Virus record (IMG/VR): IMGVR_UViG_3300043429_000717
Span: 1 to 28,470 of that record
DNA length: 28,470 nt
Origin: a virus
Direction: 5' to 3' (one strand)
The notes beneath the pieces are model-generated. The model had not been told where the DNA came from. It saw only the letters and a program-made list of their open reading frames with translations, and did not search any database. The translations under genes were made by a program, and so were the position numbers. Below, in pieces: positions 2,841 through 23,352 of this stretch. Each line of letters begins with the position of its first letter. The stretch's first letter is position 1.

Positions 2841-3718
2841 CAGTATGAATTAATGTTTTTAATTGGTCCGCCGTACCGTATCCGGGCGCCCTGTTTGGGC
2901 TGGATCAGGGGCAGCTTTGCGGTCATTTCCCCGCGGGCAAACGATCGCAGCATTTCGGTGGCATTGATGTATCTGTCCCGGCGAAGGTCAGGGATATTCC
3001 TGGGCGCGATCCGGCTGTGGACATGGTATAAACAGATGTCAATGACCGTCATCAGAACAGACTGGGTTCTGTTGTCGCCGGCGGTCCATTTCGTCGCGTC
3101 CGTTGGAAGGGTTCCAGGCGTCAGGCTGTACGCTGTCCCAGTCCCCCAGAACGTGACGCCGTTTTCGGGATCATCAGGGAAGATGTTGGGATACGGGATA
3201 TTTTCGATCACGCGAAACTGGATATTATCCCCGTATTTGATTGATGGACGTTTGCAGACGTATGTTTTGTTTTTCCAGAAAACCTGATCCCCTGCTTTGT
3301 ACAGGGTTTGATAATTAAAAACGGGCTGGGGATACTTCACATAAAACAGATCGTACTGCTCCCCCAGGGCGGACCATTTTGCAGCGTTGAAGGCTTCAGG
3401 GGTGGATATTTGGGTGATGCACCTGTAAACCTTCCCGGCCTGCAGGACCAGGGCGCCGACGTTGTAGGTCGCCTGGGCGCTGTATGCTGTGGCGTCCAGG
3501 TAAACGCGATCCGCGGCCTTATATGCCACAGCGGCGGACCAGGGCATGGTTTCCGTGAATTCCTGGCTGGTGTCATACTTTTGGGCCAGGTACCCATACG
3601 CTTCCTCTATGGCCTGCAGTTCAGCGGTGGCCAGGACCGTCAGATCATTGCCGATCACCTGGTTCAGGTTATCTGTTTGGATCTGACGCTTAAAATCTTG
3701 TACTATTAGGTATCCCAT
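2840..3718 (-). CDS. Head completion / gp36-like (DUF1320-like) protein with carbohydrate-binding-like inserts
   Basis: A 292-residue protein. The start is taken at the ATG at 3718, where MGYLIVQDFKRQIQ begins. The frame stays open upstream to 3814, but that part lies within the HNH gene, and 3718 gives a one-base stop/start overlap (TGATG). The first 55 residues and the last 75 (RDRYINATEMLRSFARGE, then GARIRYGGPIKNINSY) look like the DUF1320/gp36 head-tail joining family, usually about 140 residues long. Between them are two modules rich in Trp/Tyr and Gly, about residues 62-122 and 135-216. They have the Y-x-x-G-x-x-V...G-K-x-Y-x-C...W rhythm of CBM5/12 carbohydrate-binding folds. The extra length thus looks like surface domains inserted into a connector protein. 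The gp36 call is fairly safe, the CBM call tentative. Confidence 0.75.
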   Translation of the reverse strand: MGYLIVQDFKRQIQTDNLNQVIGNDLTVLATAELQAIEEAYGYLAQKYDTSQEFTETMPWSAAVAYKAADRVYLDATAYSAQATYNVGALVLQAGKVYRCITQISTPEAFNAAKWSALGEQYDLFYVKYPQPVFNYQTLYKAGDQVFWKNKTYVCKRPSIKYGDNIQFRVIENIPYPNIFPDDPENGVTFWGTGTAYSLTPGTLPTDATKWTAGDNRTQSVLMTVIDICLYHVHSRIAPRNIPDLRRDRYINATEMLRSFARGEMTAKLPLIQPKQGARIRYGGPIKNINSY

Positions 3719-4281
3719 CAAACAAATTTGAAGGTGTGGCCACCCGCGTAATTTCTTACGCCTCGGCAAACTTTGTTGATATTCTGGTAATGAATGTTCA
3801 TCTGCCTGGCACATTCATGCAAACCGTCATACACTACCCCAGTGCTTACACATAAAATCCGCTTGCTTTTGTAATTTTTGTTCCCTATCCGATTTAACCT
3901 GTTCATTTTTGAGGAATGAATCATGTTTTCTGATTGGGTACACCATTCAAGATTTTCCACATTGTTGTTTTGTGGATCAAAATCTATGTGATTGACAAAC
4001 GGCTTACGACTTGGATTTTCTATAAAGGCTTCAGCCACAAGTCTATGCACCTTTATTTTTTTGCTTTGTGCGTTTTTTGTAAGAGTAACGACCATATATC
4101 CGCCGGTCTTGCTTTTGACTTGATTCAAAAACGCCTCTTTTATCTCAAATTCCTGATTGTTGCCGTGACCGGCATAATACTTTCGTAATAATGTTTTTAC
4201 TCTCCCCTGGTTGGAAATTTCGTAGATGCCTTCATATCCCTTTATTGGCTTCCATTGCTCTCTTGATGGGAAATTTACCAT
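3718..4281 (-). CDS. HNH homing endonuclease with NUMOD4 and NUMOD1-like DNA-binding motifs
   Basis: A 187-residue protein starting MVNFPSREQW. The frame extends upstream to 4413, but that stretch runs through an intrinsic terminator (4363-4395), so 4281 is preferred. In order: NUMOD4 (W-K-P-I-x-G-Y-E-G-I-Y-E-I-S-N-x-G-R, residues about 9-28); the HNH_3 core (H-R-L-V-A-E-A-F-I, then V-N-H-I-D-F-D, N-N-N-V-E-N-L-E-W-C-T and E-N), about 80-122; and a NUMOD1-like C-terminus (V-Y-D-G-L-H-E-C-A ... N-K-V-C-R-G ... G-G-H-T-F-K-F). Such enzymes cut an allele that lacks the insertion and spread the gene by recombination. It is wedged between a terminated small-gene cluster and the head operon, and it overlaps the next gene by one base. 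No intron is seen, so it is probably free-standing. Confidence 0.9.
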   Translation of the reverse strand: MVNFPSREQWKPIKGYEGIYEISNQGRVKTLLRKYYAGHGNNQEFEIKEAFLNQVKSKTGGYMVVTLTKNAQSKKIKVHRLVAEAFIENPSRKPFVNHIDFDPQNNNVENLEWCTQSENMIHSSKMNRLNRIGNKNYKSKRILCVSTGVVYDGLHECARQMNIHYQNINKVCRGVRNYAGGHTFKFV

Positions 4282-4330
4282 GGACGTAATTATTGTCGCT
4301 AAAAGTACGCGCCAAAGTTCTAAAAGTTTG

Positions 4331-4348
4331 TTTTGTATGCCTACAAAA
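4331..4348. promoter_or_regulatory. Inverted repeat TTTTGTA-N4-TACAAAA upstream of the HNH gene
   Basis: Perfect 7-base arms with a 4-base spacer (TGCC) in the non-coding gap between the terminator and the HNH start. Each arm is identical to the 7-base unit of the iteron arrays at 11710-11772 and 11881-11942, and the 7+4 spacing equals the 11-bp iteron period. It may be a binding site for the same protein, for example an operator, but a chance AT-rich palindrome is possible. Confidence 0.4.
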
Positions 4349-4362
4349 TTTGGATGGGATGC

Positions 4363-4395
4363 AAAAAAGAAAGGGCCAGCCTGGAAAGGCAGCCC
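4363..4395 (-). terminator. Intrinsic terminator after the small-gene cluster
   Basis: Read on the minus strand: a hairpin GGGC-T-GCCT-TTCC-AGGC-TG-GCCC (4395-4373) with two 4-bp helices around a small internal loop, followed directly by TTTCTTTTTT. It sits 30 bases after the stop of the gene ending at 4426. It argues that the HNH frame upstream of 4281 is not coding. Confidence 0.8.
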
Positions 4396-4425
4396 CGATA
4401 TGACCATACACAAAAAACGATTTTA

Positions 4426-10534: not shown

Positions 10535-11455
10535 TCATTTGCGTAAATCTTCGCCGTCCAGGTTAATCACGTTGAACATTTCCCTAATCCTGGACCGGAC
10601 CCTGTACCCATACAGATCCTCAATCTGTTTTCCCCCCAGGTTGGTGGTGACGATCAGTTTTGAAAATAGCCCGCCGCGTAAATATGTCATTTCTATAAAT
10701 TCTTTGAACCAGTTTATTTCCGTTCCGAAATATTTCACTGGGACCGTCTCCGCCCCGACGTCATCCAGTACAATGACATGATCCGCCCTGATCTGCAGTT
10801 CACAGCTTCCATGCTCCCGGACGTGTTCAGCTATTTCCAAAATGGAAACAATTCGAACAGGCGCCAGGGGGTTAGTTCTGACCGCCTTCAGGGTTTCGGT
10901 TTTCCCCGTCCCGCTTTCCCCCAGGACCAGCAATCCCTTCAGCGGATCCATCCCCAGTTCCGTTTCCAGGCGTGCATCATCGGACAGCATGTATGCCAGG
11001 GCGCGGAAATATTTGTCCTGACCGGCCACATGTTTGAACTGGCCATGTTTAGCGATGTAGTGGTTTTCAATTCTGCAAAGTAAAAATTCAGCGGTCCATG
11101 TCGCCCGTAATTGGTTGACCCGTTCCTGTGCCGCGCGTTTTTTCAGTTCAGCGTCCCGTTCGTTTTCCTCTGCCCAGCGTTTGCGATATGCTGCAGCCAC
11201 CAGGATGGATTCCTGATCTTCAGCGCTGATCGTCCAGTCCCTGGTCGCCATTTTGTGGGCGATTTGCTCCGGGCTTGCTCCCTTTGCTGCCAGACGAAAC
11301 GCATAATTTTCCCGCATCCTTTCGATGGCGTATTTCAGATGATATTCGCGTTCCTCTGGGGTCAGGGTGGCAATTAGTTCAGATGGGTTCACGAATGAAT
11401 CCTGGGGCGCTGGGGTCCATTCGCTTTTTGCCATTAGTTCGGATATTTGTTTCAT
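10535..11455 (-). CDS. DnaC-like AAA+ helicase loader
   Basis: A 306-residue protein. The N-terminal half is helical (about 30-130). The AAA+ core has Walker A G-E-S-G-T-G-K-T at 179-186, Walker B V-I-V-L-D-D at 227-232, a sensor-1 region I-V-T-T-N at 268-272, and a late Y-R-V-R-S-R-I-R-E with candidate arginine fingers. It resembles DnaC/IstB-type ATPases that place the host replicative helicase on the phage origin. The start codon at 11455 lies 77 bases inside the upstream replication gene. A second ATG eight residues in (11434) is an alternative start. Pairing with the upstream organizer gene copies the O-P order of lambda. Confidence 0.87.
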   Translation of the reverse strand: MKQISELMAKSEWTPAPQDSFVNPSELIATLTPEEREYHLKYAIERMRENYAFRLAAKGASPEQIAHKMATRDWTISAEDQESILVAAAYRKRWAEENERDAELKKRAAQERVNQLRATWTAEFLLCRIENHYIAKHGQFKHVAGQDKYFRALAYMLSDDARLETELGMDPLKGLLVLGESGTGKTETLKAVRTNPLAPVRIVSILEIAEHVREHGSCELQIRADHVIVLDDVGAETVPVKYFGTEINWFKEFIEMTYLRGGLFSKLIVTTNLGGKQIEDLYGYRVRSRIREMFNVINLDGEDLRK

Positions 11456-12074
11456 TTGGTTGCAATTTTAACCAGTTACGAAAATGTTGCAGCTGTCTGT
11501 TTCGACCTCCATGTGTTGTTCCCTGGCTGTGTATCAGGTAGGCGGACCAGTATGAAACCACCTGGGCATCAGTCAGGGTCCGCTGGGCGGTGATGTAAAC
11601 ATATTCCTTTGCCTGTCCAATTTCCAGGGGCGTCAATGCACCCCCTTCCCCCTGCACCCCCTTCCCTTCATTTTCAATTTCATTTTCATATTCAATATCA
11701 ATATCAGGGGTTTGTACATGTTTTGTAACTGGTTTTGTAGGGCTTTTGTATCTGTTTTGTACAGCTTTTGTACGTTTTTCGCTTATTTCCCGCTCCCGGA
11801 TCATCCGCCTGTTCGAAAAAATGATGGTTTCGCCGGTTTCGATGCCACAGATCTGATTTTCGATCAGTTCATTCAAAATACTTTGTACGCCGTTTGTATC
11901 CGTTTTCCAAAGGTTTTGTAGCGATTTTGTAGACGTTTTGTAGACCCCGCTTTTTTCATTTTTGAACATTTTGAATATGATCTTCAGCCAGGCCGCTTCC
12001 GCTTGCAGGGACAGGCAGTTTGTGTCCTGTTCCCAGTCACCGATGTACAGGGGGATGTATGGAATTTTTGACAT
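11379..12074 (-). CDS. Replication organizer / initiator-like protein
   Basis: A 231-residue protein. The N-terminal 100 residues (IPYIPLYIGDWEQDTNCLSL, AEAAWLKIIFKMF, LQNLWKTDTNGVQSILNELIENQICGIETGETIIFSNRRM) match the DUF1376/phage replisome-organizer winged-helix type. A charged linker (IDIEYENEIENEGKGVQGEGG) separates it from a helical C-terminal part (IGQAKEYVYITAQ, QVVSYWSAYLIHSQ, QLQHFRNWLKLQP). Such proteins bind origin iterons and recruit the helicase loader coded next. Here the gene itself holds two iteron arrays and an AT-rich stretch, as lambda O does. The ATG is preceded directly by the U-tract of a terminator-like hairpin. Confidence 0.82.
   Translation of the reverse strand: MSKIPYIPLYIGDWEQDTNCLSLQAEAAWLKIIFKMFKNEKSGVYKTSTKSLQNLWKTDTNGVQSILNELIENQICGIETGETIIFSNRRMIREREISEKRTKAVQNRYKSPTKPVTKHVQTPDIDIEYENEIENEGKGVQGEGGALTPLEIGQAKEYVYITAQRTLTDAQVVSYWSAYLIHSQGTTHGGRNRQLQHFRNWLKLQPNETNIRTNGKKRMDPSAPGFIREPI
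11637..11666 (-). repeat. Tandem 14-bp repeat forming G-tracts on the minus strand
   Basis: The plus-strand unit TGCACCCCCTTCCC occurs at 11637-11650 and 11653-11666 (period 16). On the coding strand this gives G3-AA-G5-TGCA-G5-AA-G5, which meets the four-tract, short-loop rule for an intramolecular G-quadruplex. It encodes the Gly-rich linker of the replication organizer and touches the AT-rich part of the putative origin. Confidence 0.65.
11667..11942. other. Putative replication origin: AT-rich unwinding region plus two 11-bp-phased iteron arrays
   Basis: The AT-rich, T/A-skewed stretch is 11667-11706. Array 1 has units at 11710, 11721, 11733, 11744, 11755 and 11766 (TTTTGTA; the first is GTTTGTA), with spacing 11, 12, 11, 11, 11. 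Array 2 has units at 11881 (CTTTGTA), 11892 (GTTTGTA), a decayed unit at 11903 (TTTTCCA), then 11914, 11925 and 11936 (TTTTGTA), all at exactly 11. The period is not a multiple of three, so it cannot come from a protein repeat. It equals about one helical turn, which puts all sites on one face of the DNA. Location within an initiator gene next to a loader gene matches lambda-type origins. Replication function is inferred. Confidence 0.75.
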
Positions 12075-18927: not shown

Positions 18928-21900
18928 TTAGTATGTTGCTGCCAAAAGTTTGTATTTAACCCCGTTTATTTCAACCTGTACATATCCAGTTGCTGTGGGT
19001 GCTGTCGTTACATATTCACCCAGTTTCCACGGGCGCGCTGTGCCATCTGTAGGCGCCGCTGTTATGACTTCAGCATTTTTTGTTACCCTGAAACTTTTAC
19101 TTCCATCTGTAAGGTTCAAAAAATTTGAAGATGACCCAGATGCTGTATTTGTAATCAGCATGTATATACCATTGACATTTGCCGTTGTATTCCATGTTGA
19201 TTGTAAATTCAAAATGTCCCCACCATTATTCCCAGTAAATGTTGAACCTGTTACCGTAATTGGTGAAACGTTAGTTGTATTTGATATGGCTAAAACGGTC
19301 GTATCTAAATATAAACCTTTCAAACTTGATGACTGATTATTTACAAAAAATACTGGGCCTTTAACCACTAAACTGGCCGCGTATGTTGAAACGTCCACCA
19401 TGCCAATAGTGACTTCCTGCGAAAAATATGATCTTCCGGATACTTGTAAAATTTCCCCATTATTTGTGTTACTGGTTGTCCCTATAAGTAATTCCCCGGA
19501 TGCGCTTATTGTAGCCCTGACTGTGCTATTTGTCGCAAATTGTAAAGGTTTGTCATAACCTGAACCGACGACGGCGGCGTATGATGATGAACCCGTGAAA
19601 ATGGATCCGCCCGTTGAACTTTCGGCACCGTACAACAGCCAGGCATTTGAACTGTAAATCTGTGCAGCGATGTCGGACGTTCCAGATCTGGCGATGTTAT
19701 GCCCGATAGAAACGTTTGCAGTTACGTCAATCTTCCCAGTGACGCGGGTGTTCCCGTTGACGTCCAGCTGGTATCCGTTGTCGCCTGGGGATGCACCTAT
19801 AAATACGCGCCCGTTATTGAAAATTCGCATCCGCTCCGTGTTATTGGTGCCGAAAATCATTGCGCTATTTGCGCGCTGGTATAAATAAGCATCAGCGACA
19901 CTGGTGCCGCCGAGTAATCCAATATCGAAACCGATAGTATTTGCAGTATTCCGATACAATGTTTGAGCAATCCCGTCCAGTATAAATTGCCCGTTTGTAA
20001 ACATATTCCCTGCGACATTCAATTTATATGATCCCGGGCTGTTTGTCCCGATGCCGACGTTCCCAGATTGCGTAAATCGCACCCGTTCGGCAGGGCTTCC
20101 AGTGTTGGACGTGCTGATCACCAGATCATCGCTGTTCGCAGTTCTGCCGAAAAACATATCTGATGCAGCCACGCCCTGAAAATTGAATCCGGAAAAACGG
20201 GTGTTGTCACCTTTGCCGATGTAGTTCAGGCCCGTCGCCGCTGTCAATGCTGTGGCGCCTTGATTGCTTCGATAATTTCCATCGACGATCAAATTTGAAT
20301 TGCTGTAAATTTCACCGATGACTTGCAGGGCATATCCATAATCTGTGGACGATGTATTTATACCCACTCGTCTGTTGTTAAATACTCTAAAGGCTTCAGC
20401 GAATCCAGCGTTTCTGAAAATTGTTGCCCCGTCTGGGTTATCAACGTAAATGTTGTTGTCTGTAAACAGCATGATTTTCGCTGCATCTGTTCCGCCTGTG
20501 CTGTTTTTCCATTTTAATTGATTCCCATTTTCAAATATTTGATTGCCGTTGACGTGCAGTTTTGAAACGGGGCTGGTGGTGCCGATTCCGATGTTCCCAT
20601 AGGGATATGTAATATTTCGATAGCCTATATTATCCCCCGCAAAAATATCGACGCGCCTATTTGATCCCGTTGCGCTGGGGCGTAATTGTGTCAGAAAATA
20701 CAAGGATCCCAAGGTGGCATCTGTTCCGGCCCTTAATGCTAAATTGCTGTAATTAGCGTCATTTGGCGCGGTGTAATTGTTTACGTTCAGATCCCCGCCG
20801 TTGACGTCCAATTTCGCGCCTGGGAAATTTGTACCAATTCCAACATTTCCGCCCTCATTTATTCGCATTTTTATTGATGGCGATGTTGTACCAGTGACCA
20901 AACTGATCCCGTTTGTGTAACCTGTTCGCGGGTTTGCCTGTATTATTGTTTCGCCATAGTTATCAAACGGAAACGACCCCCCGACATTGCTGGCATAAAT
21001 AAAACCTTGCGCGCCTCCGCCGTCGTTATTTAGGGCAAAATCACTGTCGTAGAAAGTTGTCCTGTTTGTTGATGCGGTCCGTAAAACGCCTAATATTCGT
21101 TCACTCCCAGGGACTGAAAGTTTTGCCGTTGGGGATGTCGTACCAATCCCTACATTTCCGCTGGTCGTCGCAAAGTTTGCCCCGTTGACGGATCGCATGG
21201 TTCCGTTCACGTCGAATTGATACCCGGCGTCGGCGGTTGTATTTAATAATAATCGCCCCTCTGTGGATAGGCTCATTTTTTCAACATGCCCGCCAAAATC
21301 AAAATTGGCGTAACCAAATTTCAATGACCCGTTTAGGTCTTGAATGTATGACATGTATTGCGCCGTGTTTGAATTGATTAAAGAAATTGTCGGCCTTGCG
21401 TTTGCTGTTGATGTTCGTATTGCTATGCCCCTATAATTGGAAACATTATCAACCATTAATTTATTCCCTGACGCCTGTGCGCTGCCAATAATAATATTTG
21501 TACCCTCTTCAAATATTTGTGAATTACCCAGCGTATTCGCCGCTGTCCATTTCGGGATGTAGTTTGTAGTCCCGGATCCGTTTGTTTTTCCTGATCCTAA
21601 ACTGTCGACAGCTTTCTGTACTCTGGCCCTGGTGGCGATGGCCGCCGTATCGACCAGCAATGACTGGCCGGATTTTGTCAGGCCGTATCCTGCAGCCCGG
21701 ATGTATGGCGACAGCATGCTGGACGTATCTGAAATGTTCACTTTCAGATTGATCCTATTTGACAGACCCAGGGTGTCAGCTTTTCGCAAATATGGCGTCA
21801 GCATGGCGGTGGTATCTGATTTTCGCAGATACGGGGCAATCATTGCCGCGGTGTCACTGATGTTTAATTTCAGATTGATCCGGTTCGACAGAAACAGGGT

Positions 21901-23352
21901 GTCTGATTCTTTCAGGTACGGCGACAGCATGGATGCAGTGTCACTGATATTCAATTTTGTGGCCAGTGCAGCGTTTACGTTTGATGTCCTGGCGTATGGG
22001 GACAGCATGGCTGTAGTGTCTGCCTTTCGAAGGTATGGCGTCAACATTGACGACGTATCCGAAATGTTGACTTTCAACGCCAGGGCCGCGTTGACATTTG
22101 ACGTCCTGGCATACGGTGATAACATGCTGGCGGTGTCTGAAATATTGACTTTCAAATTTATCCTGTTGGACAGGGTTGCTGTGTCTGCATCCCGCAAATA
22201 CGGGGACAGCATGCTGGCAGTGTCCGAATATTTTACCGTCGTCGCATTATTCGCCGGGGTGTATCCCAGGGCCTGGGCGATCGTTTTGTTTTTCCACAGG
22301 CGGGTCGTGCTGTCGTATGCTATGACCTGATTATTTATACTGTCAGTGATCAGGACGTTGTGCAGTTCCTCCAGTTCGAATCCGTTCTGTACGTTGACAA
22401 ATATTTCCCCATTATTGGAATTTACCCTGGTGACGACGCCGATGTAAACCATGTGGGCAGGGGCGACGGGTTTGTTCGCTGTTCCGTACAACAGATTTCC
22501 GTTTGTACCTAACCAGACCGGATCCCCGGCGGTGGCGCCTATGGTGTTCAGCCCCGAAAGGCGGCCCTGAATGATCACAAAACCCTGTCCATTTGTTGTT
22601 AGGTTCTGGTATAACAGGCCCAGCGTTTTGCTGGATGTGGCGTCCGACGTGTTTGATGCTTTTGAAACCAGTACATTCGTGCCATCCGCCCCCGTTACAT
22701 ATACCGCCTGACCTTTGTTTATGGATTGTGTGGCTTTCACTGTTTCCCTGACGTCGGTGGTGTAATTGTCGATCCATGCGACATCATAATTTGTGGCGCT
22801 GTTTTTCGCCAGGATCTGGCCGGTGGTTCCGCCTATGGGCAAACCAGCGACAGCCTTTGCATACGGGGCCAGCATGGCCGCTGTATCTGATATGTTCAGT
22901 TTTGTGTTTATTCGATTCGACAGGGTGACCGTATCCCCTTTCCTGAAATACGGGGACAACATGGCGGACGTATCCGATTTCCTCAAATATGGCAGCAACA
23001 TGGACGCCGTATCTGAAATCCTGACCCGTAGGGCCACCAGTGCAGAAACGGAATCATCGCCCTTTTGACGCCAGGCCCTGGTTGACATTATGACCGTATC
23101 GACCGCGGCGTTTGCCCCGATTTTTTCCCATTTCACGCCAGTCCTGACATACAGGGAATCATTTAGGACCACCAGGGACCCAGGTAATTTGTTCTGGACC
23201 GTATCCGCGGGCATAACTATGGCAGCTTTCGCCTTCAGCCTGTTATATGTGAACCCGTACCCGTTGACCATAGTATATCTGGTCGTATCATTTTGACCGA
23301 TGGCGGCCAGGGTGAACGACAAAACAGTAAACAGGGCGATCAGTTTTTTCAT
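18928..23352 (-). CDS. Large tail fibre / receptor-binding protein with an N-terminal signal peptide
   Basis: A 1474-residue protein. Residues 1-19 form a typical signal peptide (MKKLIALFTVLSFTLAAIGQ). Residues 112-163 and 376-552 hold 11 copies of a unit like S-D-T-A-S-M-L-S-P-Y, many joined by L-S-N-R-I-N-x-K-x-N-I. Between them (about 200-335) is a compact domain with KGQAVYVTGADGTNVLVSKA, GDPVWLG and GEIFVNVQNGFELEELH, frequent in phage fibres. Residues 699-1306 have eight modules of the form V-G-I-G-T...L-x-V-x-G. The C-terminus (about 1430-1474, PWKLGEYVTTAP ... EINGVKYKLLAATY) is a short cap; no S74 chaperone is seen. The gene directly follows baseplate genes. Confidence 0.88.
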   Translation of the reverse strand: MKKLIALFTVLSFTLAAIGQNDTTRYTMVNGYGFTYNRLKAKAAIVMPADTVQNKLPGSLVVLNDSLYVRTGVKWEKIGANAAVDTVIMSTRAWRQKGDDSVSALVALRVRISDTASMLLPYLRKSDTSAMLSPYFRKGDTVTLSNRINTKLNISDTAAMLAPYAKAVAGLPIGGTTGQILAKNSATNYDVAWIDNYTTDVRETVKATQSINKGQAVYVTGADGTNVLVSKASNTSDATSSKTLGLLYQNLTTNGQGFVIIQGRLSGLNTIGATAGDPVWLGTNGNLLYGTANKPVAPAHMVYIGVVTRVNSNNGEIFVNVQNGFELEELHNVLITDSINNQVIAYDSTTRLWKNKTIAQALGYTPANNATTVKYSDTASMLSPYLRDADTATLSNRINLKVNISDTASMLSPYARTSNVNAALALKVNISDTSSMLTPYLRKADTTAMLSPYARTSNVNAALATKLNISDTASMLSPYLKESDTLFLSNRINLKLNISDTAAMIAPYLRKSDTTAMLTPYLRKADTLGLSNRINLKVNISDTSSMLSPYIRAAGYGLTKSGQSLLVDTAAIATRARVQKAVDSLGSGKTNGSGTTNYIPKWTAANTLGNSQIFEEGTNIIIGSAQASGNKLMVDNVSNYRGIAIRTSTANARPTISLINSNTAQYMSYIQDLNGSLKFGYANFDFGGHVEKMSLSTEGRLLLNTTADAGYQFDVNGTMRSVNGANFATTSGNVGIGTTSPTAKLSVPGSERILGVLRTASTNRTTFYDSDFALNNDGGGAQGFIYASNVGGSFPFDNYGETIIQANPRTGYTNGISLVTGTTSPSIKMRINEGGNVGIGTNFPGAKLDVNGGDLNVNNYTAPNDANYSNLALRAGTDATLGSLYFLTQLRPSATGSNRRVDIFAGDNIGYRNITYPYGNIGIGTTSPVSKLHVNGNQIFENGNQLKWKNSTGGTDAAKIMLFTDNNIYVDNPDGATIFRNAGFAEAFRVFNNRRVGINTSSTDYGYALQVIGEIYSNSNLIVDGNYRSNQGATALTAATGLNYIGKGDNTRFSGFNFQGVAASDMFFGRTANSDDLVISTSNTGSPAERVRFTQSGNVGIGTNSPGSYKLNVAGNMFTNGQFILDGIAQTLYRNTANTIGFDIGLLGGTSVADAYLYQRANSAMIFGTNNTERMRIFNNGRVFIGASPGDNGYQLDVNGNTRVTGKIDVTANVSIGHNIARSGTSDIAAQIYSSNAWLLYGAESSTGGSIFTGSSSYAAVVGSGYDKPLQFATNSTVRATISASGELLIGTTSNTNNGEILQVSGRSYFSQEVTIGMVDVSTYAASLVVKGPVFFVNNQSSSLKGLYLDTTVLAISNTTNVSPITVTGSTFTGNNGGDILNLQSTWNTTANVNGIYMLITNTASGSSSNFLNLTDGSKSFRVTKNAEVITAAPTDGTARPWKLGEYVTTAPTATGYVQVEINGVKYKLLAATY
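19435..21258 (-). repeat. VGIGT-type module repeats in the fibre
   Basis: Eight degenerate protein modules ((V/L)-x-I-G-T...L-x-V-x-G; e.g. at residues 734-749, 837-852, 921-936, 1099-1115) spaced 60-110 residues apart. They are typical of trimeric fibre shafts and are a natural substrate for recombination. Confidence 0.7.
21697..23019 (-). repeat. SDTASMLSPY repeat blocks in the fibre N-terminal half
   Basis: Three units at 22864-23019 and eight at 21697-22227, separated by a non-repeat domain. Two linker types alternate: short (LRKSDT) and long (LSNRINLKVNI or ARTSNVNAALALKVNI). Codons vary between copies, so protein-level selection has kept the pattern. Confidence 0.8.

Follow-up and report, generated by a model that had tools for sequence, protein, structure and literature searches.

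A likely iteron origin with 11-bp phasing inside the predicted initiator gene of a virus

The window analyzed here, the whole 28,470-base stretch of an IMG/VR virus record, raises the question of what two rows of a short repeat are doing inside the coding sequence of a predicted replication gene. The gene lies on the minus strand (11379..12074) and encodes a predicted initiator (replisome organizer) of 231 aa with a winged-helix N-domain, a disordered linker, and a helical C-terminal part. On its coding strand the repeats follow the pattern TACAAAA-NNNN. Array 1 (11881..11942, minus strand; codons ~45-65, within the winged-helix domain) comprises six units starting at 11881, 11892, 11903, 11914, 11925, and 11936, and reads TACAAAA three times, followed by a decayed TGGAAAA, TACAAAC, and TACAAAG. 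Array 2 (11710..11772, minus strand; codons ~101-122, a helix end and the disordered linker) comprises six TACAAAA/TACAAAC units starting at 11710, 11721, 11733, 11744, 11755, and 11766. Together the arrays hold 11 exact TACAAA hexamers (gene nt 132, 143, 154, 176, 187 and 302, 313, 324, 335, 347, 358) and one decayed unit. The first-pass annotation had placed TTTTGTA and close variants at these starts, and the DNA does read TTTTGTA or a one-base variant there, with GTTTGTA/CTTTGTA at three of the 12 units and decay at one (11903, TTTTCCA). Its 11-bp phasing is exact throughout 11881-11942, whereas the steps in 11710-11772 are 11, 12, 11, 11, and 11.

The genomic setting is that of a replication module. 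A DnaC-like helicase loader gene (10535..11455, minus strand; PHROG 50 E 3.7e-14, PHROG 3277 E 2.9e-12) overlaps the 3' end of the initiator gene, downstream of it, and exonuclease and RecT genes lie upstream. The 231-aa protein matched DUF1376 (PF07120) with E 2.2e-5 and 25.2 bits, below the curated cut-off of 30.1 that its homolog in L010 exceeds at 30.4 bits (L numbers are our own handles), and PHROG 3992 'primosomal protein' with E 2.2e-6; its tblastn match to YdaU was weak. These matches and coordinates agree with the earlier placement of the arrays inside an initiator-like gene and beside a DnaC-like loader gene. Phage_rep_O (PF04492) gave no match at E 0.1, RepA_N no sequence match in Pfam or the PDB, and the Pfam domain Phg_2220_C, present in a relative (L014), was absent; the PDB held no believable sequence relative. 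In phage records neither the whole protein nor its C-terminal 87 residues found a match, and matches to the N-domain were weak. No relatives were found in the bacterial genome contigs scanned, and no close relative of the window in the collections searched. Elsewhere in the window, an ORF at 3718-4413 (minus strand) has, by eye, the look of a free-standing NUMOD4/HNH homing endonuclease, and a 1474-aa ORF at 18928-23352 (minus strand), probably a tail fibre, contains many NISDTASMLSPYLRKSDT-like segments and a 39-bp tandem repeat at 22929-23013.

Chance does not account for the repeats. Among lags 5-36, lag 11 was the strongest in the initiator gene, exceeding both codon-order shuffles (z = 7.0, 0/400) and synonymous shuffles (z = 2.7, 2/400), so that the phasing proposed from the letters alone stands against either null; the neighboring DnaC, RecT, and exonuclease genes gave no lag-11 signal (z <= 1.4 under either null). 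The longest chain of one hexamer at 10-12-bp steps has six units in the initiator gene, a length never reached in 2000 shuffles of each kind (at most two units by codon order, at most five by synonymous shuffling), and across the whole window no other chain of at least four units was found except sub-chains of the same array. Could the protein itself have produced the pattern, through a repetitive, lysine-rich linker or through codon usage? Array 2 does code part of the disordered, lysine-rich linker, and synonymous shuffles retain some 11-bp signal, the observed value standing just 2.7 above them. Set against this, 11 is not a multiple of three, as the first-pass annotation had argued, and because the 11 exact units are spread over all three reading frames the protein is not their cause.

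An AlphaFold model of the protein (mean pLDDT 69) bears on the same question. A winged helix is modeled with confidence within residues 11-109, residues 111-143 are disordered, and the C-terminal part is helical. The codons of array 1 specify a strand and helices that belong to the winged helix proper, structured residues that a by-product of the linker would leave unexplained, while array 2 and the AT-rich stretch beside it mainly code the disordered linker, where, going by the model, the protein has room for the demands of the DNA. The top PDB fold matches included, at E 0.02-0.07, 4pt7 and 4pta, the N-domains of RepA_N plasmid initiators (PMC7145576). The winged-helix model and these matches favor reading the protein as an initiator that binds its own gene; the best fold match, at no better than E 0.015, and the almost equal scores of generic winged helices count against it.

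Selection at the DNA level was assessed in three groups of relatives by comparing synonymous codon mismatch at shared amino acids with the expectation from codon usage. Synonymous variation was 0-0.3 of expectation over the arrays and their AT-rich neighbor and ~0.4-1.0 elsewhere. In Pseudomonas-type genes (n = 23) array 1 (codons 55-71) had a ratio of 0.20-0.28, and array 2 with the stretch after it (codons 115-149) had 0.07-0.22, against mostly 0.5-0.9 elsewhere. In Rhizobium-type genes (n = 29) the ratio was 0.13-0.23 at codons 109-143 and ~0.7-0.9 in most of the rest, the first array not being visible in the profile, and in L011-L019 (n = 8) it was 0.00-0.23 over most of codons 115-143. 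The Mann-Whitney P values (2e-12 for the Pseudomonas type, 2e-13 for the Rhizobium type) are descriptive only, since the regions were picked after the profile was seen. The window gene and that of L087 use the same codon at 15 of 24 identical residues inside the arrays, compared with 12 of 43 elsewhere. Synonymous drift of the units, which the first-pass annotation had said would refute its reading if seen in close relatives, is suppressed exactly at the arrays in all three groups. Synonymous variation being suppressed over the arrays and the AT neighbor, selection therefore acts on the DNA, and with synonymous sites frozen at the arrays in relatives we reject a protein-coding cause, the least probable of the explanations considered. 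The freeze was measured in the genes of relatives, the window itself having no close relative in the collections, and this limits what it says of the window.

Twelve viral contigs encoded relatives of the window protein, and those aligned were ~29-43% identical to it over the alignment. Their arrays occupy the same place, mostly in the same phase (L020, with lag 12, is the exception) and with other unit words: AAGCAAA in L011-L019, AGCCAAA in L009, and TACCAAA in L010, with array 1 inverted in the last two. Homologs in Pseudomonas-type phages have the unit TTCAACG. Such variation in the words at constant phase and place is a further point against a by-product of the protein. A collection-wide pattern search for three phased TACAAAA units returned, among the matches listed, many low-complexity sequences, several unrelated initiators, and L087, an independent phage whose protein shares ~50% identity with that of the window over its N-terminal 143 residues and has a different C-terminus. 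At the places seen in the window, array 1 of L087 has three TACAAA units and array 2 has four. Array 1 lies at the same place in L087, L142, and L143, and because L142 mixes TACAAA, TGCAAA, and AGCAAA while L143 has mostly AGCAAA, the word seems to change stepwise in the two arrays. The comparison of homologs for conserved TTTTGTA phasing, suggested at first pass, thus finds place and phase conserved, and TACAAAA itself in L087, but the exact letters differ in distant relatives.

Module swapping is strong in these genes, one C-terminal domain standing behind many different N-domains (L246-L286), and the window protein is itself such a combination. Its C-terminal part is common to L009 and L010, while its N-domain type and its iteron word are common to L087. 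This weighs against an origin recognized by a host factor such as DnaA, with the phage protein a mere helper in helicase loading: the unit word follows the phage N-domain. Host factors can serve phage origins, and to our knowledge TACAAAA is not a DnaA box; we regard this explanation as very improbable. Rows of TACAAA at 10-12-bp steps were also seen mid-gene in initiator-like genes of other families (L104, L131, L042, L066, L137, L061, L136, and L063, the last a Phage_rep_O gene), and to judge from sequence their presence in unrelated initiators may reflect either convergence or exchange of one word.

A total of 111 nonredundant initiator genes gathered from several seeds were surveyed alongside 106 downstream ORFs as controls, with z > 3 as the pass mark. 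Lag 11 passed in 63% of the initiator genes and in 0% of the controls, with mean z of 4.04 and -0.07, respectively; a harmonic appeared at lag 22, and lags 6 and 12 carried a signal of their own, partly due to AT-rich hexamers. Of the 82 genes in the DUF1376-like set 59 passed, as did 11 of the 29 genes combining other N-termini with the C-domain of L142. Most arrays lay at 0.36-0.5 of the length of the gene, and several groups had a second array at 0.15-0.23. The sample is uneven, with many Pseudomonas and Rhizobium types, and counted by N-domain cluster 17 of 42 passed at lag 11 and equally 17 of 42 at lag 12, which counts against the origin reading, as does the failure of about a third of the surveyed initiator genes at lag 11. 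The lag-12 passes mix AT-rich hexamers with true 12-bp arrays, e.g., in L131.

An origin would also need a place to open. The stretch at 11667..11706 (minus strand) has 17% GC, in line with the AT-rich neighbor noted from the letters, and adjoins array 2, following it on the coding strand, where it is periodic in the hexamers GATATT/GAAAAT. It is a probable DNA unwinding element, and the hexamers are perhaps its single-strand binding repeats. Relatives also have a lag-6 signal, seen in about a third of surveyed initiators, and synonymous sites are frozen in the counterpart of the stretch in L011-L019. Flanking the AT-rich stretch is a paired G-run element, GGGGGTGCAGGGGG (11637..11666, minus strand), an exact 14-bp direct repeat. 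A paired G-run element, GGGGGTNNNGGGGG, likewise lies 3' of the AT stretch in L009 (nt 406), L010 (407), L087 (429), L245 (444), and L020 (461), and Proteobacterial types have paired C-runs at a like place (CCCCCTTTATCCCCCC, and CCCCCCCTAAATCCCCCCC in ydaU). In the window copy the runs are numerous enough for a G-quadruplex.

The evidence for selection shows a DNA element and leaves its kind to be argued from context. Operators and centromeres can also be phased repeats bound by winged-helix proteins, and the arrays might accordingly be binding sites at which the initiator or another phage protein acts in autoregulation, partition, or replication silencing. The cumulative GC skew, which has no clear turning point at the locus, counts against an origin. 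However, the AT-rich neighbor is frozen as well, as an unwinding element would be, a helicase loader gene is paired with the initiator gene, and the location inside an initiator gene matches that of proven origins; an operator would be expected near a promoter, and the arrays lie 130-370 nt into the gene. On balance we consider a non-origin role unlikely, albeit less so than recognition by a host factor.

We therefore favor, with considerable confidence, an iteron origin that the initiator binds within its own gene, including the mechanism that follows. The N-terminal winged helix would occupy the TACAAAA units, phased at 11 bp, in a line along one helix face, the two arrays would nucleate a cooperative complex, this complex would melt the adjacent AT-rich hexamer stretch, and the DnaC-like loader encoded by the next gene would then load the host DnaB helicase. 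The arrays, their phase and place, the selection on DNA in relatives, the gene context, and the winged-helix model are results of the analysis; binding by the 231-aa protein, melting, and helicase loading are inferred from the precedents of lambda O, SPP1 G38P, and pSK41 Rep.

A wider generalization, for which we see the arguments as evenly balanced, is that DUF1376-type initiators share a grammar of iterons phased at one turn (11 bp), frequently arranged as two arrays, with one lying within the codons of the reading domain. Because word and domain would drift together, the replicons of related phages would be mutually incompatible. An origin within an initiator gene is already known; what the comparison of these genes suggests is its recurrence, with lineage-specific words, across a large and poorly studied phage family. 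In literature that we covered incompletely, we did not find the family-wide one-turn phase, the array in the reading domain, or the stepwise word change described. For a large phage protein family of 'unknown function' the analysis proposes both a function, that of an origin-binding initiator, and a target site, and the combination of an 11-bp lag with frozen synonymous codons suggests a sequence-only finder of phage origins. The site lies within the gene that encodes its reader, and its word seems to change in graded steps (TACAAA, TGCAAA, AGCAAA), which makes the family a natural experiment on the joint change of protein and site; it could also supply sets of small orthogonal replicons. The finding is a testable generalization and not a new principle.

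Origins embedded in initiator genes are of a textbook kind, and one of the systems closest to the window is orf11 of phage r1t. There, too, the initiator gene lies between recombination genes and a DnaC-like loader gene, and the statistic applied to the window gene detects four GGAACC repeats at 11-bp steps mid-gene; Rep11 reportedly binds short direct repeats within orf11. Unlike the window protein, Rep11 has an N-domain that is not DUF1376-like by Pfam and carries Phg_2220_C, and one array was found, with GGAACC as its unit. ORF20 of 80-alpha and rep of TP901-1 were ruled out as 11-bp cases, with lags of 15/30.

In phage lambda and Stx phages, O binds repeats within its own gene (PMC7466680), and ori-lambda resembles the window in having iterons and an AT-rich region midway through the initiator gene, with the helicase-loader gene P next to it. 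The four iterons of lambda are, however, 18 bp long at 20-24 bp start to start, without an 11-bp signal, compared with 7-bp units at 11 bp in the window, and O belongs to the Phage_rep_O family, which the window protein does not match. The label 'lambda-like' given at first pass therefore fits the layout, but neither the protein family nor the iteron. The organizer G38P of SPP1 binds direct repeats beside an AT-rich unwinding element inside gene 38 (PMC6316719), so that oriL, compared by description, likewise has repeats and an AT-rich element inside the organizer gene; SPP1 differs in encoding its own helicase and in having a second origin, oriR (PMC6316719).

Within the family itself, an earlier study interpreted mid-gene repeats in the replication gene of Obolenskvirus, a genus of Acinetobacter phage, as a possible origin (PMC10888812). 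The member IME-Ap7 has a DUF1376-related gene, although the unit words are different and the Obolenskvirus relative tested (L237) has lags of 8/16, not 11. The ydaU gene of the E. coli Rac prophage shares the DUF1376 N-domain family and carries GTTCAAACA repeats, with other unit words and a mixed periodicity (33, 12, 23, 11). In E. coli K-12 (L140, 5120-5977) these repeats lie mid-gene together with an AT-rich GATA-type stretch. Rac has an active origin, oriJ (PMC3945230), and ydaU is, on its sequence, a candidate site for it.

Beyond phages, the winged-helix N-domain of pSK41 Rep binds repeats in the center of the rep gene (PMC5703833). The window has mid-gene repeats and a modeled winged-helix N-domain as well, and its fold matches to 4pt7 and 4pta are weak. 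The RepA_N systems differ in being plasmid-borne and in having semi-palindromic iterons of 8-9 bp (PMC7145576). In pSK41 Rep the origin sequence encodes a linker that the protein can do without, and in pPR9 the N-domain and the origin have been swapped as a unit (PMC5703833).
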